64,000 nt of DNA, taken from contig NZ_CP060201.1 of NCBI RefSeq assembly GCF_013407925.2, positions 4,263,001 to 4,327,000 on the forward strand. The letters run 5' to 3'. Shown in pieces: positions 6,166 through 55,058 of this stretch (positions are counted from its first letter, which is position 1; every line of letters begins with the position of its first letter). This DNA comes from Pseudomonas protegens (GTDB lineage Bacteria > Pseudomonadota > Gammaproteobacteria > Pseudomonadales > Pseudomonadaceae). Below the pieces are notes generated by a model, which saw nothing but the letters and a program-made list of their open reading frames with translations, had not been told where the DNA came from and did no database searches. A program made the position numbers and the translations under genes.

Positions 6166-8019
6166 TTAATAGTGATACCACTTGAGTTCGAGCAGCACTT
6201 CGTTGACCGGGGTCGCCAACTGGCTGAACTGCCGTTGCGCGCTCAAACGCAGGCCCAGGTTGCGCGACAGTTCCCATTGCTGGTTGAGGCTCAGGCTGCG
6301 GCGCACTTCGCCATTGGTGAAGTAATCGCCCTTGGCTTCAAGGCTGAAGTTGCCCAGCGGGTTCTTCCACAGCAGCCCGGAGTTGAAGCCTGCCGCCGGG
6401 GCGATGAAACCGGCGAAATCGGCGTTGTGCTCGACCCGCACGGTGCCCAGGGCAAAACCCAGCGTGTCTTCGCCCAGCTGCCAGGTGCCACCGGCACCAC
6501 CGTTGACATGGCTGACCAGGGTTTCGTCGTCGTGCTTGCCCGGCACCCGTTCCAGGCCACCGGTGACCTGCCAGGACCAGGGTTGCAGCAGCTCGTTGCG
6601 TGGGGTGAGGGAGCGGATGGTGGCTAGGTCCAGCTGTTGCAGCTGCCAGTGGTTGCCTTCGTACTGGCGCAGTTTCATCTGCAGGATTTCGATCTGTGCC
6701 CCCAGGGGAAAGCCTTCGGCGTTGTCGTTCAGGTCGTGATAGGCCATGCGCAGGCCGTACTCGGCAAAGGCCTTGTCGTCCCGGGTGCCGACCCCCAGTT
6801 GCCAGGTGCGGGACTGGTGGCCGTCTTCCGGCAGGCCGGGCCGCTTTATTTGCAGCTCTGGCGCCGGGTTCTGGTTGATCGCCCGCAGCAGCTCGAAGCT
6901 GCGCTGGGAACGCTCGGCATCGCGCTCCAGGCCGTTGGCCCGGTAGCGCTCAAGGCGGTAGGCGGCATCGACGATCAAGGCCTGGCGGTCCCGGGGCAGG
7001 GCCTTGAATGGGCCTGTCTGCAATTGTTTCTGATCGGCGCTGACCTTGAGGACCCACTGCTGTTCGTCGTGGCTCAGGGGCTGGGCGCGGCTGAGCAGCT
7101 CCCGCTCACGGGACGGGCGATAGTCGATCTTCTCCACCAGGCCGGCGTCCTTGACTGCCTTGACCGTGTCGGTGGGAATGGCGGTCAGGGGGAACTGGCC
7201 GGTCAGGCGCAGGCTGGGGCGAGCCACCTGCAGCAGTTCCAGCAGGCGGTAGGAGCAGTTCTCGTCGAAGAAGAAGTAGTCGAACTTGATCTGCTTGAGT
7301 TCCCAGACGTGCTCCACCATGCGTTCGGTTTCGGCTTGTGTCAGGTTCAGCCGGTATTCCCACAGGTCGCGGTTTTCCAGGCTGCGGTATTCCGAGAGCT
7401 TTTCCTGGTAGGGCACCAGGGCGAACAGTCCCGGGTAGCCGCCCATCAGGCCTTTCCAGGCGTACAGAATGCTGTTGTCGGACCCTTCGATGTAAGCGCC
7501 GAAGTTGATCGCGTAGCTGAGCAGGGCGGTGTGGTTGCTCTGCACGTCGGCCTGGTCGATGCGCAGCAGGGTGTGGCCGAACATCGACGACGGGCTGTTC
7601 AAGTACGCGGCGGGAAAGATCATCACCGTGCTGTGGGGCGAGACATCCTTGAACCACTGGTTGAATTCGGCGCACTCCACTCGCGGCAAATCGTTCAGGC
7701 CCAGTTGGGCCTTGAGCCAGCGGGTGCGGGATGGGTAGACGCACTGGGCATGCCGGTCACCCGCGTCGGCCGGGGCGTAGAGGGCTTTCAGGGTGGCGGC
7801 CAGCTCGGCATCGGGGTGGTGGGCGCCGTCGGCCGCGAGGAAGAACTTCGGGTCGCTGACGTAACTGCGCCAGCCGCCGAGCTTGGCGGTTTCGTAATGG
7901 CCGATGGAAATCCAGAAGGGGTCGTGGGCCAGTTGCTGCAAACGTTGAGGGTCGATCTGGGGCGCGGCATACAGCGGGGCGCAGACACAGAGCGCCAGGT
8001 AGGCAAGGCGTTTGAGCAT
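6166..8019 (-). CDS. DUF4105 (Lnb-type) secreted protein
   Basis: 617 residues with a signal peptide (MLKRLAYLALCVCAPLYA). The DUF4105/Lnb N-terminal region contains CAEFNQWF, PSSMFGHTLLRID and a downstream FFFDENCSYRLLELL; the conserved His and Cys in these resemble papain-like NlpC/P60 active-site arrangements. The C-terminal 250 residues have alternating strands and end in ELKWYHY, reminiscent of an outer-membrane beta barrel. It probably acts in the periplasm or outer membrane; substrate unknown. The ATG at 8019 is chosen over one nine codons upstream because it starts directly at the signal peptide. A terminator from the upstream gene separates it from the DUF3015 gene. Confidence 0.78.
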   Translation of the reverse strand: MLKRLAYLALCVCAPLYAAPQIDPQRLQQLAHDPFWISIGHYETAKLGGWRSYVSDPKFFLAADGAHHPDAELAATLKALYAPADAGDRHAQCVYPSRTRWLKAQLGLNDLPRVECAEFNQWFKDVSPHSTVMIFPAAYLNSPSSMFGHTLLRIDQADVQSNHTALLSYAINFGAYIEGSDNSILYAWKGLMGGYPGLFALVPYQEKLSEYRSLENRDLWEYRLNLTQAETERMVEHVWELKQIKFDYFFFDENCSYRLLELLQVARPSLRLTGQFPLTAIPTDTVKAVKDAGLVEKIDYRPSRERELLSRAQPLSHDEQQWVLKVSADQKQLQTGPFKALPRDRQALIVDAAYRLERYRANGLERDAERSQRSFELLRAINQNPAPELQIKRPGLPEDGHQSRTWQLGVGTRDDKAFAEYGLRMAYHDLNDNAEGFPLGAQIEILQMKLRQYEGNHWQLQQLDLATIRSLTPRNELLQPWSWQVTGGLERVPGKHDDETLVSHVNGGAGGTWQLGEDTLGFALGTVRVEHNADFAGFIAPAAGFNSGLLWKNPLGNFSLEAKGDYFTNGEVRRSLSLNQQWELSRNLGLRLSAQRQFSQLATPVNEVLLELKWYHY

Positions 8020-42038: not shown

Positions 42039-42114
42039 TCCGTGATAGCTCAGTCGGTAGAGCAAATGACTGTTAATCATTGGGTCCCAGGTTCGAGTCC
42101 TGGTCACGGAGCCA
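42039..42114 (+). tRNA. tRNA-Asn (GTT)
   Basis: 76 bases. Acceptor arms TCCGTGA and TCACGGA pair; D-arm AGCTCAGTCGGTAGAGC; anticodon loop CTGTTAA with GTT at 42072-42074; T-loop GGTTCGAGTCC. CCA is encoded. Confidence 0.97.
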
Positions 42115-42123
42115 ATTTCAAAT

Positions 42124-42200
42124 CGGGGTATAGCGCAGTCCGGTAGCGCGCCTGCTTTGGGAGCAGGATGTCAGGAGTTCGAATCCCCTTACCCCGACCA
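42124..42200 (+). tRNA. tRNA-Pro (TGG), copy 1
   Basis: 77 bases. CGGGGTA pairs with TACCCCG; anticodon stem CCTGC/GCAGG with loop TTTGGGA and TGG at 42158-42160; T-arm GTTCGAATCC; CCA encoded. Confidence 0.97.
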
Positions 42201-42205
42201 TTTTT

Positions 42206-42281
42206 GGGTCGTTAGCTCAGTTGGTAGAGCAGTTGGCTTTTAACCAATTGGTCGTAGGTTCGAATCCCACACGACCCACCA
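42206..42281 (+). tRNA. tRNA-Lys (TTT)
   Basis: 76 bases. GGGTCGT pairs with ACGACCC; anticodon loop CTTTTAA with TTT at 42239-42241; T-arm GGTTCGAATCC; CCA encoded. Confidence 0.97.
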
Positions 42282-42343
42282 TTTTTGAGACCAGTTCGCT
42301 GGAATCGAATCTTAAGATCAGACGCCAAAAGCTCTGTTCGCAG

Positions 42344-42372
42344 AAGGCGCCTTTTAAAGGTGCCTTTTTTTT
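42344..42372 (+). terminator. Intrinsic terminator after tRNA-Lys
   Basis: AAGGCGCCT pairs with AGGTGCCTT (one G-T) and is followed by a run of eight T residues. It separates the first three tRNAs from the second tRNA-Pro. Confidence 0.85.
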
Positions 42373-42374
42373 AC

Positions 42375-42451
42375 CGGGGTATAGCGCAGTCCGGTAGCGC
42401 GCCTGCTTTGGGAGCAGGATGTCAGGAGTTCGAATCCCCTTACCCCGACCA
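42375..42451 (+). tRNA. tRNA-Pro (TGG), copy 2
   Basis: 77 bases, identical to the copy at 42124 including CCA. It begins three bases after the T tract of the preceding terminator and has its own terminator after it, so it relies on read-through or an unseen promoter. Confidence 0.96.
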
Positions 42452-42499: not shown

Positions 42500-45400
42500 C
42501 TAAAAAGGCGTGCCCCGGGGCGGGCAGGGGCTGGCGGGCTTCGAACTGGCGAGGCTTTCGCGCTCGCCATCATCGGCCTGCCCCATGACCAGCAGGCGCT
42601 CTTCCAGCTCATCCAGGCTGATGGGTTTGATCAGGCAGTCGTTCATTCCCGCCTGGATGCAGCGCTCCACCTCCTCCTGCTGGGCGTCGGCGGTCAGGCC
42701 GATGATCACGATCGGTTCGCTGTGGGTATCGCGCTCATCCTGGCGAATTGAGCGGGTCAGTTCGGCCCCGTTCATGACGGGCATGTGGCAGTCGGTGATG
42801 ATCACGTCGAAGCCCCGCTCACGCCATATGTGCAGGGCCTGCAGACCGTTTTCCGCCTCGACCACGTCATGTCCGAGGAAGCACAGTTGCTGCTGCAGGA
42901 CCTGGCGGTTCACCGGGTGATCGTCCACCACCAGGATCTGCAAGCGGTACATGTGACGCTTGTTGACCGGTGGCAGGCGCTCGGCTGCGGCCACGCTCTC
43001 CAGCGTCTGCAGACGCAACTCCACATTCACTCGGGTACCTTGCCCGACAGCGCTGCTCATCGACACCTGGCCCCCCATCATTTCGCACAGGGAACGGCAG
43101 ATCACCAGGCCCAGGCCCGTGCCCTCGAGGTTCTGCACGTTGCGCTCCACCTGGGCGAAAGGCTGGAACAGACGTTGCTGGCTGCCGGGCGAGATGCCGA
43201 TCCCCGAGTCCTCGACACACAGCCGCACCCGCAGCACCGCGTCGTCCAGCAGATCGCCGCCGATGCTCACCTTGATAAACCCGGCCTCGGTGAATTTGAT
43301 GGCGTTGCTCACCAGATTGGACAGGATCTGTTTGAAACGCAGGCCGTCCACCAGTACGTCGCCGTTGATGCTGGAATCGATCTCGAGGATCAGGTTCAGG
43401 CATTTCTGCCGGGCCAGCCCCTCGAACACCCGCGCCACCGACTCCACCAGCTCGCGCAAATTGGCCCGTTTGGGCGAGAGACTCAGGCGCCCCGACTCGA
43501 TACGGGCGATATCCAGAATATCGCCAATCAGCTCCAGCAGGCTGTGCGCCGAGCTGTAGGCAATTTCAATGCTGGAGCGTTCGATCCGGCCGCTGTCGGC
43601 GCGTTTGAGCGCCAGTTCCAGAATGCCGATGATCGCGTTCATCGGCGTGCGGATTTCATGGCTCATGGTGGCCAGGAAGGTGGTCTTGGCCCGGCTGGCC
43701 TGGTCCGCGAGGTTCTTGGCTTCCTTCAGCTCCTGGACCAGATGGCGATGCCTGGTAATGTCCAGCCAGCCGCAGATCACGCCCTTGGTGACGCCATTGG
43801 CATCCTTGAATGGCTGAATCCAGTGCTCGATCCAGACCTCCTTGCCCTGCAGCTTCACCGCATGGACCGAAGTGATGGTCTGGTCGTCGCTGATGGCCTG
43901 CAGGTAGTTCTGATGCAGATCGGGTTGCGCCGCGAAGTGCTCGGCCGGCAGTGGCTGCACGCAGCGGTTGAGCACCTCTTCGGCGCTGAGCCCGACGCTC
44001 TCCAGGTAACTGCGGTTGCAGGACAGCATGTGGCCGTCGATATCGCGGATATAGAGCGCAGGCGGCATGTTTTCCGCCAGTGTTTCGATAAAGCGCAATT
44101 GGCCGTTGAGGGTTTGCTCGGCCTTGACCCGGCGACGCAAGTAGACGACCCAGGCCAGTGACAGCATGAGCAGCAGCGAGGCCCCGGCGATGATCTCGGC
44201 GATCATCAGGGCGTAGTCGCGCCAGGTCTGGCTGCTCATCCCAGGCGGCGAGCGCCAGTGGCTGGCGATGGCGTTCAGGTCGTCCGCCGGGAGGCTGAGC
44301 AGGGCCTTATCGAGGATGGATTGCAACTCCGGGTCGCTGCGGCGCAAGGCAAAGTGGGTGGTGGCCCGGGCGGTGGGAATCAGGTCGGCGACGGCCAGGC
44401 GGTTCTGAAACAGACGGACAATGTAGTAACGCGCGGCCGGAAGGGACACCAGCGCGGCATCGGCACTGCCTTCATAGACCCTGTTCATGGCGTCCAGCGA
44501 GGTATCGGTTTCGATGATCCGGGTTTGCCGATAGTGCTCGCGCACCTGTTGCAGCGTGACGTGGCCGCGGGGTATGGCCAGGCGCTTGCCGATCAGTTCT
44601 CCCGCAAGCTGCGCCTTGCCGTTCCGGTCGGTTGGGCTGACGAGGACAAAGGGGCTGCTCAGAAAGGGCCGGGTGAAGCGCAGCGTGTGCTCGCGTTGCG
44701 CGCTGGCGGTCATGATGGCCAGGTCCGCTTCCGATTTACCCAGGGCTTCCATCTGTTCCGGGTAGCCGCCGTTGCGGGCGGACACCTGGAAGCGCAGGCC
44801 GCTACGCTGGGCAATCAGTTCCAGCAGTTCGGCGGTGACTCCGGAGAAAATGCCGTTGGCGTCGAAAAACGCCACAGGCGCCAGGTCATCGTTGATCACC
44901 AGGCGGATCAACGGGTTGCGGGCGATCCAGCGCGACTCCTCCGGCGTCAGAACCACCTTCTCATCCGACGCAACCAAGCCACTGCCTACCCAGCGGTGAC
45001 TGAGACTGGTGAGTTGTTCTCGGCCAATGGCTTCGATGCACTGGTCGAGAATGCGCTGCAGGCGCTGGTTGTTCCCCTTGAGTGCAAAGCCATAGTCCCC
45101 TTTGGAAAACTCGGCGAAACCTTCGAGCTTGAGGTAGCTGTAGTAGGCGCGGTTAATGCGGAAATAGGCGCTGAGCACGTCGTCCAGGTACAGATCGGCA
45201 TGGCCGAAGGCCGCCGCGGCAATGGCTTCGTCGGGGCTGGGGTAGATCATCGCGTGGGCGAGAGGAAAGCGTGCCAGCAGTTCGGCGCTGTGCTCCTGAG
45301 GGACGGCCACCCGCAGCCCGGCCAGGTTGGCGGACGCAGGCCTCGGGTCGTCGTTGCGCCTGAACAGGGCCAGGCGAGCCTCGGCGAAGGGGCGGCTGAA

Positions 45401-45805
45401 CCTGAGGCTGTCGGCCGTGGCTGGCCGGGAACTGTAGCTGCCCAGCAGATCGATACTGTCCGCTTGCAAGGCCTGCAAGGCGGCATCCCGGGTGGTAAAC
45501 GGCACGACCTTGATGCGCACCCCGAGCATCTGCCCGATCAAGGCGCTGACGTCGGCGGAAATGCCTTCGTAGTGGTGGTCGTCATAGCTGACATTGAACG
45601 GTGCCGACTCGGTGGCGACGGCGCCGATTGTCAACGCTGACTTGTGACGCAGCCAATGCCAGTCTTCTTCCTCCAGGGCCAGATGGTGATGGTCGAGGTG
45701 AGCCCGACTGTGCAAGGTATTGGGCAATGTCGGGGGCTCGGCCGCTGCCGGTTGCACAGCGGTGAGCGCCAAGCAGACGAACAGCCAGATAAATCGTGAA
45801 TGCAT
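42500..45805 (-). CDS. rocS: RocS/BvgS-like hybrid sensor kinase lacking HPt
   Basis: 1101 residues. Signal peptide (MHSRFIWLFVCLALTAVQPAAA). Two periplasmic SBP_bac_3 venus-flytrap domains (about 50-275 and 290-520). A membrane helix near 550 (IIAGASLLLMLSLAWVVYL) and a PAS domain. HisKA with MSHEIRTPMN; HATPase with NAIKFTE and GTGLGL; a receiver with VVDDHPVNR, ITDCHMPVM and LIKPIS. It ends about 35 residues after the receiver. RocS1, BvgS and EvgS normally continue with an HPt domain of about 100 residues, which is missing. The start at 45805 is set by the signal peptide. Beside it are a rocR remnant and divergent rocA, the P. aeruginosa rocS1-rocR / rocA1 arrangement. Confidence 0.8.
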   Translation of the reverse strand: MHSRFIWLFVCLALTAVQPAAAEPPTLPNTLHSRAHLDHHHLALEEEDWHWLRHKSALTIGAVATESAPFNVSYDDHHYEGISADVSALIGQMLGVRIKVVPFTTRDAALQALQADSIDLLGSYSSRPATADSLRFSRPFAEARLALFRRNDDPRPASANLAGLRVAVPQEHSAELLARFPLAHAMIYPSPDEAIAAAAFGHADLYLDDVLSAYFRINRAYYSYLKLEGFAEFSKGDYGFALKGNNQRLQRILDQCIEAIGREQLTSLSHRWVGSGLVASDEKVVLTPEESRWIARNPLIRLVINDDLAPVAFFDANGIFSGVTAELLELIAQRSGLRFQVSARNGGYPEQMEALGKSEADLAIMTASAQREHTLRFTRPFLSSPFVLVSPTDRNGKAQLAGELIGKRLAIPRGHVTLQQVREHYRQTRIIETDTSLDAMNRVYEGSADAALVSLPAARYYIVRLFQNRLAVADLIPTARATTHFALRRSDPELQSILDKALLSLPADDLNAIASHWRSPPGMSSQTWRDYALMIAEIIAGASLLLMLSLAWVVYLRRRVKAEQTLNGQLRFIETLAENMPPALYIRDIDGHMLSCNRSYLESVGLSAEEVLNRCVQPLPAEHFAAQPDLHQNYLQAISDDQTITSVHAVKLQGKEVWIEHWIQPFKDANGVTKGVICGWLDITRHRHLVQELKEAKNLADQASRAKTTFLATMSHEIRTPMNAIIGILELALKRADSGRIERSSIEIAYSSAHSLLELIGDILDIARIESGRLSLSPKRANLRELVESVARVFEGLARQKCLNLILEIDSSINGDVLVDGLRFKQILSNLVSNAIKFTEAGFIKVSIGGDLLDDAVLRVRLCVEDSGIGISPGSQQRLFQPFAQVERNVQNLEGTGLGLVICRSLCEMMGGQVSMSSAVGQGTRVNVELRLQTLESVAAAERLPPVNKRHMYRLQILVVDDHPVNRQVLQQQLCFLGHDVVEAENGLQALHIWRERGFDVIITDCHMPVMNGAELTRSIRQDERDTHSEPIVIIGLTADAQQEEVERCIQAGMNDCLIKPISLDELEERLLVMGQADDGERESLASSKPASPCPPRGTPF

Positions 45806-45927
45806 GATCGCGTCGAAAGTTGGCGGGTCGTAAGGCTTGGTTCCAGAGTCGTGGCGCAATCCACGCTGGGCGGACGGTTGGTGAAACAGGGCCATGGGGC
45901 GCCACCTTGAACGGCTGTCGTGCGGGG

Positions 45928-46050
45928 CTAGCGGCTGCAAAATGCCAGGGCCTCGAGCACTTGCCCCGACAACACTTTTTTCAGCGGCGTCACGGTGACC
46001 AGGCGTTGCAGCGGTTCATCTTCCAGAACCAGGGCGTTCAAGTGTTGCAT
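45928..46050 (-). pseudogene. rocR: rocR remnant (N-terminal 40 codons)
   Basis: A short frame reading MQHLNALVLEDEPLQRLVTV then TPLKKVLSGQVLEALAFCSR and stop. It closely follows the start of RocR from memory (LNVLVLEDEPFQRLVAVT, LKKVVPG, ILEA). RocR is a receiver-EAL protein that degrades c-di-GMP and counteracts RocA. The receiver breaks off after the first helix, just where EAADG would be expected, and the next 120 bases lead straight into rocS. The phosphorylation Asp and the whole EAL domain are gone. The position between rocA and rocS fits. Confidence 0.75.
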
Positions 46051-46150
46051 GGCCGGCTCGCGTCATTACTTGTCGACCATCTTGCTTAATAACCTGGAGC
46101 GGGGGCCATAAGGCAAAACCCTGTGATTACTGGGAAATTTCCTAGTGAAA

Positions 46151-46167
46151 AATCAGACTGTCTGATT
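46151..46167. promoter_or_regulatory. 17-bp perfect palindrome in the rocA upstream region
   Basis: AATCAGAC-T-GTCTGATT, an 8-1-8 inverted repeat about 220 bases before rocA. A second dyad, CCGGGAA / TTCCCGG, is at 46211-46232. They are plausible operator sites; the binding protein is unknown. The rest of 46051-46380 is AT-rich and gene-free. Confidence 0.5.
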
Positions 46168-46380
46168 CCTTTGTGAGAAGTGATTAACCTCTTGTATCGT
46201 CCTTTATTTGCCGGGAATCTGAAATTTCCCGGGAGTCAACAGGACGTTGCGCAGGCGATGTCCCCATGGCAACAGTGTTTACACCAGTACCAAAGTTGCA
46301 CCTGATCGAGGTGCGATTGCGTTTATCTTCCGAGCGACACGTCCTGCCCTGAGGCCAGGTTTTTAAGGTGAAGTGACAAC

Positions 46381-47010
46381 ATGCACAGCGTATTGATAGT
46401 TGACGATCATCCTGTTGTCCGGCTCGCCGTTAAGGTCTTGCTGGAAAAAAACAACATGCGGGTGGTGGCCGAAACAGACAATGGACTGGATGCGCTGGAA
46501 CTGGTTCGTGAACATGAACCGGCGGTGGTGATCCTCGATATCGGTATTCCCAAGCTGGATGGCCTCAAGGTGCTGTCACGGATCAAGGCGCTGGGCATGT
46601 CCACCGAAGTGCTGGTGTTGACTTCGCAGCCTGTCGAGAGCTTCTGCAGGCGTTGCATTCAGCTCGGGGCTCGGGGATTCGTCAACAAGGAAGAGGACCT
46701 GGGTAATCTGGTGGTGGCCATTAATGCGGTGCTGGCCGGCTACACCTTTTACCCGTCCCAGGCACTGGATGTATCCACTCCCACCGCGGAACAACAGTCC
46801 GAGAGCGAACAGATAGGTTTGTTGACCGACCGGGAAATGATCGTGCTGCAGTATCTGGCCCAGGGTTATTCGAACAAGGCCATTGGTGAAAAACTGTTCT
46901 TGAGCAACAAGACCGTGAGTACTTACAAAACCCGTTTATTGCAGAAGTTGGGCTTGGGTTCACAAGTCAGTCTGGCGGAGTTTGCCAAACGCAATGCGTT
47001 GATTCCATGA
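46381..47010 (+). CDS. rocA: RocA-like LuxR/NarL-family response regulator
   Basis: 209 residues. Receiver: LIVDDHPVVRLAVKVLLE, Asp in VVILDIGIPKLDG, then VLTSQ and Lys in FVNKEED. C-terminal LuxR-type HTH: LTDREMIVLQYLAQGYSNKAIGEKLFLSNKTVSTYKTRLLQKLG. Same class as EvgA/BvgA/RocA1. In P. aeruginosa RocA1 controls cup fimbrial genes; target genes here are unknown. It diverges from the rocR remnant and rocS and should be phosphorylated through RocS, but RocS lacks the HPt relay step. Confidence 0.82.
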   Translation: MHSVLIVDDHPVVRLAVKVLLEKNNMRVVAETDNGLDALELVREHEPAVVILDIGIPKLDGLKVLSRIKALGMSTEVLVLTSQPVESFCRRCIQLGARGFVNKEEDLGNLVVAINAVLAGYTFYPSQALDVSTPTAEQQSESEQIGLLTDREMIVLQYLAQGYSNKAIGEKLFLSNKTVSTYKTRLLQKLGLGSQVSLAEFAKRNALIP

Positions 47011-47640
47011 GTTGAATGTGGCTGGCCATCTGTAGTTCTTTGCTTCATTGCGCAATGTGTCTGTTGTGTTGTTCGATGCTGAGCGACACAACACCTCCTT
47101 GTCTGTGAATAACTCCAGAAGTGCTGGAGCCGTCCTAAAAGTCGTTTACAGTTTTTTGTTGAACTTCACGGCCCATCTTGGATGGGCAGCTGGGACTTCT
47201 TGTCGTTTGAGATTTTTCTTGTTGATTGTGTAAGTGCAGTAACAGCTTTCTTGGGGCAGTGAGCTCTGTGGTTGCAGGTTATTTGTCTTTATAGAGGCGT
47301 CTTTTATCTAAAGCTCATTGGAAAACAGACGCGGGCTGTATCCTCCCGGGCCATATGGGTGCGCAGGGGGGGGCTCAGGCGCCGAGCGTATTCCTCTGGG
47401 GAGAAGGTGGAGGGGCTTTTCACCGTTGCGGAGCAAAAGGGGCTGGGGCATCTGCATGACAAGGGGCCTTGTCTGCAATGAATGATGCACGGCGCCACAT
47501 TCGGCTGGGTCATGAACTGCTGTTGCAGCAGATAGGGCAGGAGCCGGCATGCGTGGTACCGACCTTGGGGGGCATCAGCGCTGCTGGGGTAGAGCCTCGC
47601 GCAACCAGGCCGATAGCGCTGGTTGCGGGGCTTTGCTGGA
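47011..47640. other. Gene-free segment between rocA and the ABC operon
   Basis: About 630 bases with no credible coding frame. The first 340 bases are visibly AT-rich; the rest is GC-rich. Short frames on both strands lack ribosome sites or family features. A hairpin at 47593-47632 (AGCC...GCAACCAG / CTGGTTGC...GGCT) sits next to the convergent operon end and may mark its 3' end. Confidence 0.6.
47593..47632 (-). terminator. Hairpin at the 3' end of the peptide ABC operon
   Basis: GCAACCAG pairs with CTGGTTGC, extended by GC pairs and a ten-base loop. No T tract follows on the minus strand, so intrinsic termination is doubtful. Confidence 0.4.
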
Positions 47641-49155
47641 TCAGTTCTTGACGGTTTCTTCCAGGGAGAAGCGGCCCATTGGGCTCTGCTGGAAGTTTTC
47701 GATGTTCTTGCGTGAAATGTTGATGTAAGGACTGTAGTAGAGGTCGATCCAGTTCACGTCCTGTTTAGCGAGCTTTTGCAAGTCCAGATACATCTGTTTA
47801 CGCTTGGAGGCGTCCATTTCCACTCGTGCGTCAGCTACCAGTGCTTTGACCTTAGGGTTATGGTAGCGGGTCATGTAGTTCATGTTGGTGTCGTGTCCGA
47901 GGACAAAGGTGGTCTTCTGGTCGGGGTCGAGGATGTCTGCTGTCCAATACATGACAGACAGATCGTAGTCACCATCCACTAGCATCTGCCAGCTCTGGCT
48001 GGGGTCGACCTTTTGAAGATTGGCAGTCACCCCGACGGCCGCCAACTGATTCTGTACAAGCACGGCGATCTGTTCGTCTGCCTCATTGCCAGCGTTGACC
48101 ACGTAGTTGAGTTGCATCCCTTTGGCACCGGCTTGCTCCAGTAGCTTTTTGGCTTTTTCTGGATCGTAGGGACGCTGCAGGTTATCGGCGTAGTGGTACA
48201 TGGCGCCTTTTGGGATGTACGAATAGGCCACTTCGCCATGCCCGAAGGTAACGGCATCAACCAGAGACTTTTTATTGATGGCTAGATCCAGGGCTTCACG
48301 CACTTGTGGTTTGCTCAGCAGACTGTGTTCGTGGTTGATCAACAGGTGATCTTCCCGTGTGGAAGGATCCAGATGCACAACCAAATTTGGGTCTTTCTTT
48401 AGCGCATCGACTCGTGAGAAGGGGACGAAAAGCGCTGAGTCCAGTTCCCCTGCCTGGACCTTTAGCATCCGTGTGTTGTCGTCGGGGATGGAGATCCATT
48501 CAACGCCATCCAGGCTTACTGTATCGGCTTGCCAGAAGTGCGGGTTCTTTTCCAGGATTACCCTGTCCCCGTGCAACCACTCCTTGACTACGAAGGCGCC
48601 GGATGAAACGGGTCGCTGGGCGTAGGCCTCGTCACCCATCTTGACCATTGCTTCTTTTGAAAGGATCGATGCATTGGGCGAGGCCAACTGCGCGAGAAAG
48701 GGAACCGAAGGGCTTTTCAACGTTAGCACCAAGGTCTGGAGGTCTGGCGCCTCGGCTTTGTCAAGAATGGCGTAGGTGTCAGTCCACAACGAAGTTTTAT
48801 CATCGCGAATACGTAGCAGGCTGAAGACCGCATCCTGGGCGCTGATAGGCGAGCCGTCGGAGAATTTGGCCGGACGCAGTTTGAAGGTGTAGGTCAGGCC
48901 GTCGTCGGAAATGTTCCAGCTTTCTGCCAGTCCGGGGAGTAGCTTGGTCCCCGCTTTGTCTACTCGCACTAGTACGTCATATACGTTGGTAAATACCCAA
49001 CTGTCACGATTCTGTGCGCTTTTGATCGGGTCGAAAGTCGTGCTTTCTTCTCGGCAGCCGATAGTCAGGACCCCTGCAGCTTGCGAAATACCCGTTGTCA
49101 ATGTGCAGGCTAGAAGCGAGGCGGCTGCCAATATCTTTCGATGTTTTGCCTTCAT
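47641..49155 (-). CDS. Peptide/dipeptide ABC transporter substrate-binding protein
   Basis: 504 residues with a signal peptide (MKAKHRKILAAASLLACTLTTGISQA). SBP_bac_5 family: GLAESWNISDDGLTYTFKLRPAKFSDGSPISAQD is the family signature, with VREALDLAINKKSLVD downstream. It should capture peptides or similar compounds in the periplasm. Last gene of the five-gene operon, two bases after the second ATPase, with CAGGGAG before the ATG. In the context of the PipR-type regulator it may import a plant-derived signal or peptide. Confidence 0.9.
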   Translation of the reverse strand: MKAKHRKILAAASLLACTLTTGISQAAGVLTIGCREESTTFDPIKSAQNRDSWVFTNVYDVLVRVDKAGTKLLPGLAESWNISDDGLTYTFKLRPAKFSDGSPISAQDAVFSLLRIRDDKTSLWTDTYAILDKAEAPDLQTLVLTLKSPSVPFLAQLASPNASILSKEAMVKMGDEAYAQRPVSSGAFVVKEWLHGDRVILEKNPHFWQADTVSLDGVEWISIPDDNTRMLKVQAGELDSALFVPFSRVDALKKDPNLVVHLDPSTREDHLLINHEHSLLSKPQVREALDLAINKKSLVDAVTFGHGEVAYSYIPKGAMYHYADNLQRPYDPEKAKKLLEQAGAKGMQLNYVVNAGNEADEQIAVLVQNQLAAVGVTANLQKVDPSQSWQMLVDGDYDLSVMYWTADILDPDQKTTFVLGHDTNMNYMTRYHNPKVKALVADARVEMDASKRKQMYLDLQKLAKQDVNWIDLYYSPYINISRKNIENFQQSPMGRFSLEETVKN

Positions 49156-49157
49156 GA

Positions 49158-50159
49158 TCAAACTCCCTGTTGATATGTGGTTTTTAGTTTTTTGAACTGC
49201 GTTTCTTCTAGTACGCAGCTGTAGCGCCGGTTCTTCAGAAACCGGGTAGGGGGTGGAGTATTGGCGCAAACGGACTGCGCATACTTGCAGCGCGAGTGGA
49301 AGGCGCAGCCCGCGGGTAGCAGCATCGGGCTGGGTGGTTCGCCTGGTAATGGGTCTGGTGGCAAGGCCTGGCTTGGGTCCAGTTGTGGAATGCAGTTGAT
49401 CAAGGCCGCCGTGTATGGATGGCAAGGGTTGTTGAATATGGCTTCTACCGGACCCTCTTCGACGATCTGTCCCATGTACATAATGGCTACTCGATCGCAG
49501 ATTCGACGAACGACGGACAGGTCGTGACTGATAAACAGAAGTGTCAGATTTATCTGCTGACGCAACTCCAGTAGTAGGTTGATGATCTGTCCTTGGATGG
49601 AGACGTCCAAAGCCGAGAGGCATTCATCGGCGACAATCAATCTAGGTTCGACCGCGAGGGCTCGTGCAATCCCTACCCGCTGGCATTGGCCTCCACTGAG
49701 AGAGCCAGGTTTGCGAGAGGCTATCTCCACGGGTAGTCCTACCAGCCTGAGCAACTCGTCCACCCTCTCAGCGATGTGCTGCGAAGGCCATTTACGGAGT
49801 ACTCGTAGGGCTTCTCTTAGCGTTTCGCCAACACTCATTCTTGGATTGAGCGCGGTGTATGGATCTTGGAAAATCATTGCGGTTTCGTGTCGCAGACGTT
49901 GAATATCGCGCTTATTGGCAGCAGTGATATCTGTGCCGTCGAAAAGTATTTTCCCTCCGCAGGTCTCGTTTAAACACAGAATTGCTCTGCCGAGACTACT
50001 TTTGCCACTCCCGGATTCGCCCACCAACCCCATGATCTCTCCCTGGGCCAGATCCAGAGAGACACCATTGACCGCTTTCAGCCATCGGCTACGCATGCCT
50101 AACCAACTCGTGCTGGAGGCAAAATGTACGTGGAGATCTCTGACTTGCAGCAGACTCAT
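49158..50159 (-). CDS. Peptide ABC transporter ATP-binding protein (DppF type)
   Basis: 333 residues. Walker A GESGSGKSS, signature LSGGQCQRVGIARAL, Walker B LIVADECLSALD (Cys where Pro is usual in DEP) and the oligopeptide-transport C-terminal Cys cluster CAFHSRCKYAQSVC. Second ATPase of the importer. ATGA overlap with the preceding gene. Confidence 0.92.
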   Translation of the reverse strand: MSLLQVRDLHVHFASSTSWLGMRSRWLKAVNGVSLDLAQGEIMGLVGESGSGKSSLGRAILCLNETCGGKILFDGTDITAANKRDIQRLRHETAMIFQDPYTALNPRMSVGETLREALRVLRKWPSQHIAERVDELLRLVGLPVEIASRKPGSLSGGQCQRVGIARALAVEPRLIVADECLSALDVSIQGQIINLLLELRQQINLTLLFISHDLSVVRRICDRVAIMYMGQIVEEGPVEAIFNNPCHPYTAALINCIPQLDPSQALPPDPLPGEPPSPMLLPAGCAFHSRCKYAQSVCANTPPPTRFLKNRRYSCVLEETQFKKLKTTYQQGV

Positions 50160-51142
50160 TGCAAAACTCCTAGCTTCACTGGGAAGTGGCAGGCGACGAG
50201 TTGTTCTGCATTGGCTCGCTGTGGTTCTGGCTGTTGATTGACGCACAGCGTTACAGAGTGTTGGCAACGAGGCGCGAATCGGCACCCTTGAGGAAGGGCG
50301 TCGAATGAAGGCGGCTGTCCGGCTATTGTTTTCAAGCTGCCAAATCCTTTGCCGTGTGCTGGCTGGCAGCTAATCAATCCGGCTGTATAAGGGTGCTGTG
50401 GAGACCTTAGAAGCTCATGTTTACTGCCCCGTTCACACAGTCTGCCTGCGTACATCACGGCTATCGAATCACAGGTTTGGGCCACAACTCCCAAGTCGTG
50501 GCTGATCAGGATCAGTGACAAGCCTCGTTCATCTCGCAAGTTCAGAAGCAGCCGCAGAATTTGTGCTTGGACAGTCACATCCAGTGCGGTAGTCGGTTCG
50601 TCGGCAATCAGTACTTTTGGATTGCAACCCAGGGCTACAGCGATCATTGCCCGTTGTCGCATGCCGCCTGAGAACTCATGGGGGTAGTGTTCTGCTCTAA
50701 CTCGTGGGTCGGGGATACCGACCTGCCTCAGCAGGTCGATGGCCAGTGCGCGTGCCTCTCGTCTGGTTACTTCATAGTGCAGTTGAATACCTTCACTGAT
50801 TTGTTCGCCGATGCGCATCAGTGGGTCGAGGTGACTAGTGGGGTTTTGGAACACCATGCCTAGCTGCCGGCCTCGCACTGCGCGTATCTCATCCTCGTTC
50901 AGTTGCAATAAGTTGGTATCGCCAAGTTTTACGGCTCGCCCCTGAACATGCAGGTTACGCGCTGGTAACAGGCGCATGAGGGCTCGACAGGCAAGGGTCT
51001 TGCCGCTACCGCTTTCGCCCACAAGGCCAAGTATTTCTCCTTCCGCGAGAGTGAATGAGAGGCGGTCCACCAAAGTGGTCTCACTCTCGGCTGAGCGTGC
51101 GATGACGCTAAGTTCGTCGACTTGCAAGAGAGGGGGCTTCAC
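50156..51142 (-). CDS. Peptide ABC transporter ATP-binding protein (DppD type)
   Basis: 328 residues, GTG start with AGGAGA upstream. Walker [10 protein letters not shown], signature [15 protein letters not shown], Walker [12 protein letters not shown], and the C-terminal [14 protein letters not shown] cluster. First ATPase of the importer. The GTG overlaps the permease stop (GTGA). Confidence 0.92.
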
Positions 51143-51990
51143 GAGCGCTCTCCTAGCATGTCGGCGATGCCGTCTGCGATAAGACTGAAGCCCATTGCCA
51201 AGGAAATGATCGCCAGCCCTGGAAAGGTACAGATCCACCAGGCTGAAGTAATAAAACTCTGGCCTTCGGCAATCATTGTTCCCCACTCAGCAGTAGGGGG
51301 TTGAACACCGAGGCCGAGATAACTGACGGCTGCGCCGTTGAGTAGGATCAGTACTGCGTCGGACATGAAAAACACAATGGAACTGAAAAGCGCATTGGGT
51401 AGCAGGTGTCGGAACAGGATTCTCATGTGGCTGAACCCCAGACTTTGCGCTGCCAGGACGAAGTCGCTTTTCTTGAGAACCAGAATTTGTGAGCGTGTCA
51501 GACGGGCGTAAGAAACCCATCCCACAAGTGCAATAGCAATGTAGAAACTGCCAAGTCCGGGACCTATCAGCATCATGATCGCCAGCATCAGCACAAGAAA
51601 GGGAAAGGCCAGGATGATATCGGTCGTGCGCATGCACAGGGTGTCGAAGTATCCGCCTATGTAGCCAGACAAAGCTCCTAACGAGGTGCCAATCAGAAAC
51701 GGCAGGATGACTCCTAACAGTGATAACTGAAGATCTACCCGAGCTCCCCAGATGACTCGGGAGAGGATGTCGCGTCCGAAGTTATCAGTGCCGAACAGAT
51801 GTACGAGGCTCGGGGCGTGCAAACGTGACTCGATATTGTGCTCAAGCGGGTCGAACGGTGCGGCCCACGGCGCAAGTATTGCCAGCAACAGCCAGACGCA
51901 AAGAATTCCCAATCCCAGGAGCAGATTCAGTTGGCCGCGATTGATCCTCAAGTGTTGCCTCTGATTGGCAATCGTAGTGATGCTGCTCAT
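51139..51990 (-). CDS. Peptide ABC transporter permease (DppC type)
   Basis: 283 residues, six membrane helices. The N-terminal FGTDNFGRDILSRVIWGARVDLQLS is the DppC/OppC signature, and the EAA-like loop AAQSLGFSHMRILFRHLLPNAL contacts the ATPases. ATGA overlap with the other permease. Confidence 0.93.
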   Translation of the reverse strand: MSSITTIANQRQHLRINRGQLNLLLGLGILCVWLLLAILAPWAAPFDPLEHNIESRLHAPSLVHLFGTDNFGRDILSRVIWGARVDLQLSLLGVILPFLIGTSLGALSGYIGGYFDTLCMRTTDIILAFPFLVLMLAIMMLIGPGLGSFYIAIALVGWVSYARLTRSQILVLKKSDFVLAAQSLGFSHMRILFRHLLPNALFSSIVFFMSDAVLILLNGAAVSYLGLGVQPPTAEWGTMIAEGQSFITSAWWICTFPGLAIISLAMGFSLIADGIADMLGERS

Positions 51991-52934
51991 TGGAGTTTGA
52001 CTCGTGGGTCGATGGCGACTGTCAGGATGTCGGCAAGGAAGTTCACCGCTACGGTTGAGCAGGCCAGCACCATCGTTACTCCCTGGACCACCATGTAATC
52101 GCGGGTGAATATTCCACGCACCAGCAGCTGGCCCACGCCTGGAATTGCGAACAGGCTTTCAATCACGACAGTACCGCTGATCAGCCAGCCTATGTTCACT
52201 GCTAACAGGTTCACGGTGGGGATCAGCGCGTTGGGCAAGACATGGCGACGAAAGATGACTCCCTCATCAAGACCTCGCGCTCGGGCTGCGGCGATATGCT
52301 CGGCTTGCATTTCATCAATCAGGCTTGCGCGCAGATTTCGAATCAGCAATGACGACAAGGCCAGAGCAACAGTCAAACAAGGGAGTACCAAGTGGTGCAG
52401 TTTTTCTAGCCAGGTTTGACCGTAACCGGATACCGGAAAAAGGCCCCATTGCACGCTGAACAATAGAATCAGCATGATTCCCAACCAGAATGCCGGCATG
52501 CCCAGACCCGCAGTGGTCAGCAGCCGGATTAATCGATCAGGCCAGCCGCCTTGATTGCGTGCTGCCCAAGTGGCCAGAGGCAGCGTAATCAATAACGCCA
52601 GCATTACGCTGCCCAAGACGAGTGCCAGCGTAGGCTCAATACGGGTGTTTATGAGTTTCAGCGTATCGACTTTGTACAGCAAGGATTGGCCGAGTTCGCC
52701 GTTGAAAAGATTCTTCAGAAAATAGAGGTACTGTTGCCATAGAGGTTGATCCAGACCGTACTGGGTTCTGATTTTTAGTAAGGCATCCGGGGTACTGCGG
52801 TTGCCCAGCAGAATTCGGGCAGGATCACCTGGAATCGAACGTACCATCACAAAAGTCATCAGGCTGATACCGAAGAGCACTGGTAGCAATTGCAAAGGGC
52901 GGGTCAGTACAAAGCGATATCGTCCGAGGCTCAT
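51987..52934 (-). CDS. Peptide ABC transporter permease (DppB type)
   Basis: 315 residues, about six membrane helices. The DppB signature PGDPARILLG and the EAA loop AARARGLDEGVIFRRHVLPNALIP are present. First recognised gene of the transporter operon; all five genes are overlapping or two bases apart, so they are expressed together. Confidence 0.93.
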   Translation of the reverse strand: MSLGRYRFVLTRPLQLLPVLFGISLMTFVMVRSIPGDPARILLGNRSTPDALLKIRTQYGLDQPLWQQYLYFLKNLFNGELGQSLLYKVDTLKLINTRIEPTLALVLGSVMLALLITLPLATWAARNQGGWPDRLIRLLTTAGLGMPAFWLGIMLILLFSVQWGLFPVSGYGQTWLEKLHHLVLPCLTVALALSSLLIRNLRASLIDEMQAEHIAAARARGLDEGVIFRRHVLPNALIPTVNLLAVNIGWLISGTVVIESLFAIPGVGQLLVRGIFTRDYMVVQGVTMVLACSTVAVNFLADILTVAIDPRVKLQ

Positions 52935-53098
52935 GATTCAGCCCCGATAGTGTTGTGGATAGACGCTTGGTGTCTGGAAGAGCGTGGGCTGTTTTGTAGG
53001 CAGGGGGACTTTGTGGCCGGAGCTGGGAGGGGAGTCAACACGTTGAAGGCATAGGCCGCCTGATCTCGTCGCAGGGCCGTCGCCATTTCCTGCTGCAT
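52931..53098 (-). CDS. Possible small ORF coupled to the permease gene
   Basis: 55 codons beginning MQQEMATALRRDQAAYAFNV, Ala/Ser/Arg-rich, ending in TGA that overlaps the permease ATG (ATGA). An AGGA lies eight bases before the ATG. The tight coupling matches the rest of the operon, but the sequence has no recognisable family and could be leader RNA. The upstream part of 52935-53260 should contain the promoters for this operon and for the divergent LuxR gene. Confidence 0.3.
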   Translation of the reverse strand: MQQEMATALRRDQAAYAFNVLTPLPAPATKSPCLQNSPRSSRHQASIHNTIGAES

Positions 53099-53260
53099 CA
53101 CTAACATCCTGTCAGTTGCTACTTGATGAACAAACTTAATGAGGGCGCAGCGTCGCCGTAAGCTAGTAAATCTTATAGGTTCACTCTGGCTGTCCCTCGC
53201 CGAGGCGTGGCATTCTACTGATTGGTTGTCAAGAATGAAAACCATAAGGGAGCTGAAGGG

Positions 53261-54022
53261 ATGCAGATCAAGCTGTCTGAATACAACGACTGTCTTTTAT
53301 CTGGAAGGAATCTGGAGGCGCAGCTGGATGAAGCTATGCTGCTGGCTTCCAACCTGGGCTTCGATGCGTTGGTGTACGACTACAGCCCGGTACCATTTGA
53401 TCATGAGGGTTTGCTGATTACGCCGGAGGTGCTTCTGCGTAAGACGCCTACAGAATGGCAAGAGCTCTGGTGTAGTGAAGGTTACTACCAGATTGATCCA
53501 GTTCAGCAAGTGGCACTCAATTCTATCTCGCCGTTCCTCTGGTCCTACCAGCCAGAGGCAGAGACGGTGCTGAAACAAGTAATCGGCTTACGTCATGCTC
53601 CGGTGGTGAGCTATCTGCAAAATGCTCAGATGGCTCATGGCGTTTCAGTCCCCATCCATCTCCCGAAAGGCGGTTTTGCTAGCCTGGCGGGATTACGTTC
53701 CGGTGGGACTCAGAGCGCACTCAAGGATATGCGTCATGTTCTCGGGGAGTTCAGTCTGATTGCCTATGCGCTGCAAGAGGCTGCCTATCCAGTACTTAGC
53801 AAGAAAGAGGGAAATCATTCATCGGCACCTTTGACTAAGCGTGAGCGTGAGTGCATGAAGTGGGCTGCAGAGGGTTTTACGGCTTTAGAAATCGCCGCAC
53901 GATTGCACCGCTCTGTGGCGACCGTGACCCTCCATCTGAACTCTGCCATGCATAAATTGGGCGCCAGGAATCGGGTCCAGGCCGTCGCCCGTGCAGTTCA
54001 TTACCGATTATTGGATAGCTGA
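53261..54022 (+). CDS. pipR: LuxR solo of the plant-responsive PipR/PsoR type
   Basis: 253 residues. The autoinducer-binding domain (about 20-165) keeps Trp66 (TraR W57), Asp79-Pro80 (D70, P71) in YYQIDP and a Trp further on (FLWSY), but Trp70 replaces the AHL-contacting Tyr (TraR Y61). That Tyr-to-Trp change is typical of LuxR solos that sense plant compounds rather than AHLs. C-terminal LuxR HTH: LTKRERECMKWAAEGFTALEIAARL. No luxI gene is in the window. A proline iminopeptidase follows and a peptide ABC transporter diverges, as around pipR in Pseudomonas GM79. The ATG at 53261 has GGGAG upstream. Confidence 0.82.
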   Translation: MQIKLSEYNDCLLSGRNLEAQLDEAMLLASNLGFDALVYDYSPVPFDHEGLLITPEVLLRKTPTEWQELWCSEGYYQIDPVQQVALNSISPFLWSYQPEAETVLKQVIGLRHAPVVSYLQNAQMAHGVSVPIHLPKGGFASLAGLRSGGTQSALKDMRHVLGEFSLIAYALQEAAYPVLSKKEGNHSSAPLTKRERECMKWAAEGFTALEIAARLHRSVATVTLHLNSAMHKLGARNRVQAVARAVHYRLLDS

Positions 54023-54076
54023 GGTGATGTAAAACCTATTCTTTCTTCTAGTTACAGCCACTCCGTCTCGTCGATA

Positions 54077-54112
54077 TTGTGTGCCATGTGTAATACAGGG
54101 AGTGGCACACAA
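54077..54112 (+). promoter_or_regulatory. 10-bp inverted repeat spanning the pipA ribosome site and start
   Basis: TTGTGTGCCA (54077-54086) and TGGCACACAA (54103-54112) are perfect inverted repeats 16 bases apart; one further A-T and one G-T pair extend it to 54114. The loop contains AGGGAG and the right arm contains the ATG. It could be an mRNA hairpin or an operator. Confidence 0.7.
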
Positions 54113-55014
54113 TGGACTCGAACAAGATAACACTCGAAAGCTATGCCTCCTTTGGTTCTTATAAAACCTGGTACCGCGTTACGGGCGATTTGCGCAACGG
54201 CAATACGCCATTGGTGATTCTGCATGGTGGTCCAGGTTGCACCTATGACTATGTAGACACCTTCAAGGATGTGGCAGCCAGTGGCCGTGCGGTCATTCAC
54301 TATGATCAGATCGGCAATGGTTTTTCCACTCACCTGACAGACAAGCCATCTTCATTCTGGACGGTGGAGTTGTTTCTTGAAGAGCTCGACAACCTTCTGG
54401 ATCACCTCGGTATCAGCGATAACTATGCGCTGTTGGGGCAATCCTGGGGTGGGATGCTGGCCAGTGAGCATGCGGTATTGCGCCCCGCAGGTTTGCGGGC
54501 GCTGATTATCGCCAACGCTCCTGCCGATATGCGTACGTGGGTCGCAGAGGCCAATCGCTTGCGTGAGGCCTTGCCTGAAGAGGTACAGCAAACTCTGCTA
54601 CGGCATGAGCGGGCGGGGACAACGGACTCCGTAGAATATGCTGCAGCTTCGCGAGTCTTTTATGATCGTCATGTCTGTCGTATCAAGCCCTGGCCTGACG
54701 ATGTTGCTCGGACCTTCGCCAAGGTTGACGCCAATCCCACGGTCTATCGCGCAATGAATGGCCCTAATGAGTTTCATATTATTGCCAGTCTCAAGGACTG
54801 GAGCATTGTTGAGCGTCTGCCGAGCGTAAATGTGCCAACGCTGCTGATCTCCGGGCGCTACGACGAAGCCACGCCCACAGTGGTCAAACCCTATCTGGAG
54901 AACATTCCTGACATTCGCTGGGCCTTGTTCGAGAACTCCAGCCACATGCCTCACGTCGAAGAGCGGGTCGCCTGCATGGGCACCGTGGTGAGCTTTCTCG
55001 ACGAATGCCTGTAG
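54112..55014 (+). CDS. pipA: Proline iminopeptidase (S33 alpha/beta hydrolase)
   Basis: 300 residues, no signal. [10 protein letters not shown] oxyanion region, nucleophile Ser111 in GQSWGGM, Asp in GRYDEATP and His in SSHMPHVEE. Removes N-terminal proline from peptides, or hydrolyses related amides. It follows the LuxR solo by 89 bases in the same direction. Genes of this type are the known target next to pipR/oryR-like regulators. A dyad covers its start. Confidence 0.88.
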
Positions 55015-55033
55015 TCGGCCCGCCTGCTCGGTT

Positions 55034-55058
55034 GCCCCGCTACATTGCGTAGCGGGGC
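55034..55058. terminator. Hairpin between convergent pipA and ndh
   Basis: GCCCCGCTAC pairs perfectly with GTAGCGGGGC around ATTGC. No strong T tract on either side; probably a shared 3' hairpin. Confidence 0.6.

Follow-up and report, generated by a model that had tools for sequence, protein, structure and literature searches.

The 40-codon frame between rocS and the divergent rocA in Pseudomonas protegens is, judged against the genes of its relatives, the scar of an internal deletion in rocR, and this cluster has lost its RocR. The neighboring rocS bears a second lesion, absent from the earlier note: the loss of its C-terminal Hpt (H2) domain. Of this duplicated cluster only rocA looks whole. 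We consider it probable that the locus is a decaying copy of a Roc phosphorelay that occurs in more than one cluster in the genome, with rocR and the H2 of rocS deleted and RocA fed in trans by a second cluster. The case is one of ordinary gene decay, for which an intact second cluster provides a backup; no novel type of system is involved. The coordinates in Table 1 are those of the window, that is, the whole stretch of 64,000 nucleotides analyzed (NZ_CP060201.1, positions 4,263,001 to 4,327,000).

Table 1. Features of the Roc locus, with window positions
Feature	Position	Strand	Basis
rocR deletion scar: first ~34 and last ~6 codons plus native stop	45928..46050	-	phmmer, alignments of relatives, cut scan
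rocR deletion junction region	45941..45955	-	1053 bp = 351 codons relative to 391-codon relatives; cut scan
Intergenic region between divergent rocA and rocR scar/rocS	46051..46380	.	
rocA, 209 aa, receiver and LuxR-type DNA-binding domain, open frame	46381..47010	+	Pfam, relatives
rocS, 1101 aa: two SBP_bac_3 stretches, PAS, HisKA, HATPase_c, receiver; no C-terminal Hpt (H2)	42500..45805	-	Pfam
rocS deletion junction, about 393 bp, Hpt domain and stop removed	42514..42528	-	CCCGGG at both ends in G082, G375
tRNA-Asn, -Pro, -Lys, -Pro genes past rocS end	42039..42451	+	synteny

The 40-codon frame and its origin

The frame runs from ATG to TAG and encodes 40 residues (MQHLNALVLEDEPLQRLVTVTPLKKVLSGQVLEALAFCSR), which we compared with the PDB sequences using phmmer at E values up to 10. 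The single match was to residues 1-34 of RocR (3sy8; E 2.8e-8), and a local alignment of the peptide to RocR of strain PA7 scored 115, where the top of 2000 shuffles scored 46. The N-terminus of the RocR receiver is present for ~34 residues only, without a Pfam receiver match; the EAL domain is absent from the 40 codons, in which Pfam finds no domain, and none of the 31 EAL matches in the whole genome falls there (0/31). The locus has a Roc1-type layout, in which rocS and rocR lie together and are divergent from rocA, and its gene order is that of PA7 (L046), P. protegens FD6 (L042), G082, and G375. The earlier note had recognized the frame as a rocR remnant at the place of rocR in P. aeruginosa; the 3sy8 match and the rocR-like position bear out the first of these claims, and the comparison with PA7 bears out the second. 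A different arrangement was observed at loci of P. alcaligenes and P. otitidis (L047:979-4638, L048:978-4652), where, unlike in the window, rocS lies on the opposite strand to rocR and the two genes converge.

The nearest relatives found, G375 and G082, share 91-96% DNA identity with the window over rocS and the outer flank and 86% on the rocA side. Their DNA matches the window to either side of a single point in the frame (86-87% and 84-85%; query 1-191 and 200-651), and an open rocR of 391 codons occupies the space between the two parts. An in-frame loss of 351 codons (1053 bp; 391 minus 40) thus joins the first ~34 codons of rocR to the last ~6. The last six codons of the scar, LAFCSR, correspond to IAYCSR in G082, IAYCTR in G375, and IAYCIR in FD6, and the bases 3' of the scar stop continue as they do in G082 and G375. 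Because the last codons and the DNA past the stop both match the rocR end of these relatives, we take the stop to be rocR's own and reject a premature stop inside the receiver. The receiver does end early, as had been proposed, but not through an interrupting stop: a native stop was brought to codon ~34 by the 1053-bp in-frame deletion. Aligning the DNA, as the earlier note had suggested, also gave the approximate ends of this deletion. In a cut scan that tried every position for a gap of fixed size (1053 bp), the single cut that fitted best relative to G375 and G082 lay after frame base 101-103 (about 45948-45950), and relative to G398 and G346 after base 101. The window bases CGAGGCCCTGGC also match rocR codons 38-42 of G082 and G375 when the sequences are compared by eye; thus, the left edge may reflect a single cut or, equally possibly, a two-step path of 18 bp plus 1035 bp, which would fit as well.

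DNA spanning 45750-46400 matched 10 other genomes in a genus sample of 398 and 7 of 398 in a family sample, and all 17 matching genomes carry a full-length open rocR at the matched place (for G293 this was read through L044, with the same RocR match). In the strongest other matches (G375, G082, G398, and G346) the alignment breaks near the junction, where an open 391-codon rocR is found; an unbroken alignment over the junction was obtained for G000 only, a member of both samples. The scar was not found in any other genome by DNA searches of overlapping samples of 398, 398, 392, and 390 genomes. The last two of these searches, which added no new genome, used a stricter threshold of 1e-20, and weak relatives would therefore be missed in those two. 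The RocR frame is open at 390-406 aa in 24 of the 24 RocR places read; these places were selected for the presence of RocR, and a few of the genomes may be duplicates. Among 80 loci, seven have a RocR match at 1e-40; in the remaining 73 the RocA match reaches 61% at most. A single genome is thus known to carry the scar, with one strain of the species sampled. Searches of open-licence papers, on RocR in P. protegens and on rocR pseudogenes beside cup fimbriae, found no report of this scar, and the main text of PMC12051241 makes no mention of protegens.

With no EAL domain and hardly any of the receiver left, the 40-codon scar is, on sequence grounds, most likely without function. That it should instead encode a small protein with a function, such as a decoy imitating part of the RocR receiver, appears exceedingly improbable to us. 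The frame does keep the native rocR start and, in frame, the native stop; however, it was seen in one genome only of the samples searched and not as a stand-alone small gene conserved in many species, and what it lacks is the EAL domain and almost the entire receiver. Its residues also depart from RocR: positions 6, 22, 27, and 32 differ where the four nearest relatives agree, and position 22 is a proline where all 10 RocR sequences compared have alanine. On the window branch the scar has accumulated four changing and four silent substitutions in 33 codons, too few for a test.

The missing H2 of rocS

Of the features of an unorthodox kinase, Pfam recognizes HisKA, HATPase_c, and receiver domains in window RocS; an Hpt was found neither by Pfam in this protein nor at the locus in genome-wide searches. 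Its 1101 residues compare with 1215-1282 codons for the 11 homologous rocS frames first compared (start codons unadjusted), and the protein aligns with those of the two nearest relatives to residue 1093 and then stops. Pfam places an Hpt in RocS of 16 of 16 complete relatives examined (3/3, 9/9, and 4/4), a count that leaves out L163 of G094, with its 735-codon rocS frame, and the seven short loci L153-L159.

Past the end of window rocS, the DNA corresponds to the stretch beyond rocS in G082, with its terminator-like sequence and tRNA genes. Because this stretch directly follows the rocS end, the Hpt DNA is gone, and the terminator-like stretch and tRNA genes fix the outer edge of the deletion by synteny. 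The two matching pieces at the junction overlap on CCCGGG, and their offsets, with the difference taken by hand, give a loss of about 393 bp. A 131-aa frame (42612-42217) that overlaps the rocS end raised the question of whether a frameshift had cost rocS its Hpt; this was rejected, since the frame has no Pfam match and the terminator/tRNA stretch follows. When we searched the genome with the RocS C-terminus of G375, five places were recovered, none at the scar locus and each in an open frame at least 592 codons long, with the best in the second cluster described below. One short stand-alone Hpt in the Pfam list, a 119-codon frame at C1:1384138, gave no BLAST match to the roc H2. As RocS has no H2, the RocS-RocA relay is therefore broken as well.

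Deletions made in the laboratory typically leave in-frame scars that retain both gene ends. The rocR scar has this form and carries a CTCGAG hexamer, and we therefore weighed whether it is a made deletion or an assembly artefact. This is hard to credit: both the scar and rocS bear further lineage-specific substitutions, the rocS deletion sits on a CCCGGG repeat that is present at both ends in relatives, and the genome is a single contig rated 99.99% complete.

Another eroded Roc sensor was encountered in G094 (L163:3546-5753), in which rocR is open and the rocS frame has only 735 codons. The part of RocS beyond residue 727 finds nothing in the 12 kb of this locus except, at 7279-7878 on the other strand, a receiver matched at 30%, in the place expected for rocA.

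Constraint on rocS and rocA

We polarized changes with G398 and FD6 as outgroups and counted them by branch. For rocS, the window branch has 64 non-synonymous to 32 synonymous changes versus 29:41 on the G375 and G082 branches (Fisher p 0.0015), and after removal of sites where the changed base equals that of the paralogue the counts are 44:24 versus 22:32 (p 0.011). This excess of amino-acid changes falls in the sensor, PAS, and receiver parts. The corresponding rocA counts are small, at 3:4 on the window branch versus 4:11 on the sister branches (p 0.63), and window rocA and window rocS do not differ significantly in their branch counts (p 0.24). Pairwise dN/dS is 0.045-0.091 for window rocA and 0.038-0.081 for other rocA pairs, the highest value (0.091) belonging to a pair with the window; for rocS, the range is 0.15-0.30 with the window and 0.12-0.17 for other pairs. 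We read these values as a sign that constraint has relaxed on rocS and persists on rocA; for rocA this rests on the pairwise values. Window rocS may nevertheless not be dead, because its 1101-codon frame is open with HisKA, HATPase, and receiver domains and its pairwise dN/dS is below 1.

Within the receiver part of rocS, at codons 1022-1045 (about 42670-42745), 11 window-specific changes match the second-cluster RocS and two do not, so that this patch has the look of conversion by the paralogous gene, not of drift. We rejected the idea that gene conversion produced all of the rocS changes: a match to the paralogue is seen for 28 of the 96 changes on the window branch, and the sister branches have 15 of 69 (p 0.37), with one dense patch.

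The product of rocA has the receiver and LuxR-type HTH of a RocA-type regulator, is closest to RocA, and shares 97% identity with its counterpart in G375, 96% with that in G082, and 77% with that in PA7. Beside rocA, a stretch at about 47565-55035, which starts with a family-5 solute-binding protein gene, is missing from this place in G375 and G082.

Further Roc clusters and the fate of the relay

The 6.82 Mb genome holds a second rocA-rocR-rocS cluster, in which a RocA 88% identical to that of the window (C1:665404) adjoins a full-length RocR of 399 aa, starting near C1:666250, and a RocS with Hpt. The H2 of this RocS is 81% identical over 115 residues to that of G082. A third RocR of 395 aa starts near C1:6615900 (L125), where a RocA-like regulator (54%) and an Hpt-bearing RocS accompany it. 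Judged by a loose pattern of six EAL motifs, the second RocR has all six and the third has five of six. An intact rocR elsewhere in the genome is thus present twice over, and the claim of the earlier note that losing RocR would remove the c-di-GMP-degrading antagonist is not supported for the cell: because the genome keeps two full-length RocR genes, loss of rocR at this locus does not mean that the cell has lost RocR.

The same observations bear on the proposal that RocR loss leaves a working two-member RocS/RocA system without an antagonist. The rocA frame is open, as is rocS over 1101 codons, which speaks for it; but RocS is without its Hpt/H2, and two full-length RocR genes exist elsewhere, which makes such a system very unlikely.

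For P. aeruginosa, two-hybrid tests showed binding of the RocS1 and RocS2 Hpt domains to the receivers of RocA1, RocA2, and RocR (PMC3083521). According to the same paper, RocA1 mediates the action of both sensors on cupC, and RocR holds the two systems in check, cupC being induced more strongly in a rocR mutant. PMC12051241 adds that RocA3 is activated by RocS1 and RocS2. The decay that we favor for the window starts from the two deletions. An in-frame loss of 351 of the 391 rocR codons left the 40-codon scar, and a separate second deletion removed the rocS H2, after which the relay of RocS itself could no longer pass phosphate to RocA. Window RocA would survive as an output regulator, probably taking its phosphate from the H2 of the second cluster's RocS, as we infer by analogy; the second cluster's RocR would restrain it in trans, and window RocS would be drifting.

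Alternatively, window RocS could have turned from an unorthodox (H1-D1-H2) into a hybrid kinase (H1-D1) that stays active by passing phosphate to an Hpt on another protein, in the simplest case the paralogue's H2, which would be consistent with kinase and receiver domains in an open frame and with a pairwise dN/dS below 1. A published H1-D1 sensor with a separate Hpt exists in the two-hybrid pair RocS4 (PA2583)-HptA of P. aeruginosa (PMC12051241), and RocS4 resembles window RocS as a Roc-type hybrid kinase without its own H2. In contrast to that pair, no stand-alone roc-type Hpt was found in the genome when the H2-bearing C-terminus of a relative was the query: the five places recovered all lie in the long frames noted above, and the sole short stand-alone Hpt in the Pfam list shows no BLAST similarity to the roc H2. 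Together with the amino-acid change excess on the window branch in the sensor, PAS, and receiver parts, this leaves the hybrid kinase possible though doubtful. We regard as unlikely an extension in which the two deletions rewired the clusters, with RocS an H1-D1 hybrid sensor sharing the paralogue H2 and RocA, freed from its own RocR, sharing that of the second cluster. If true, this would be a natural step by which an unorthodox relay becomes branched, with two sensors on one H2.

Compared with the P. aeruginosa Roc1 cluster (rocS1-rocR-rocA1, viewed through PA7 L046), the window has the same order and orientation, the same RocA domains, and the same RocS domains up to the receiver; it differs in a rocR cut to 40 codons and a rocS without Hpt/H2. 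The closest published parallel for the decay that we favor is roc3 of P. aeruginosa, in which rocA3 is kept, rocR3 occurs in some clades only, and a putative rocS3 survives as remnants, the extent of loss of the latter two varying with the clade (PMC12051241). Both loci keep a RocA-type regulator while the sensor and EAL regulator decay; the window, however, concerns another species and locus, keeps most of rocS as a long open frame, and has lost rocR through an in-frame scar. The window shows one way in which a duplicated Roc relay can be eroded outside P. aeruginosa: the antagonist and relay domain are lost and the DNA-binding regulator persists. This pattern agrees with the idea that regulators of the RocA type receive input from other clusters and may last longer than the sensor of their own cluster. 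As for the cup operons that RocA controls in a working Roc system, the genome has six usher matches, of which none lies in the window, one lies near the second cluster, and two lie near the third.
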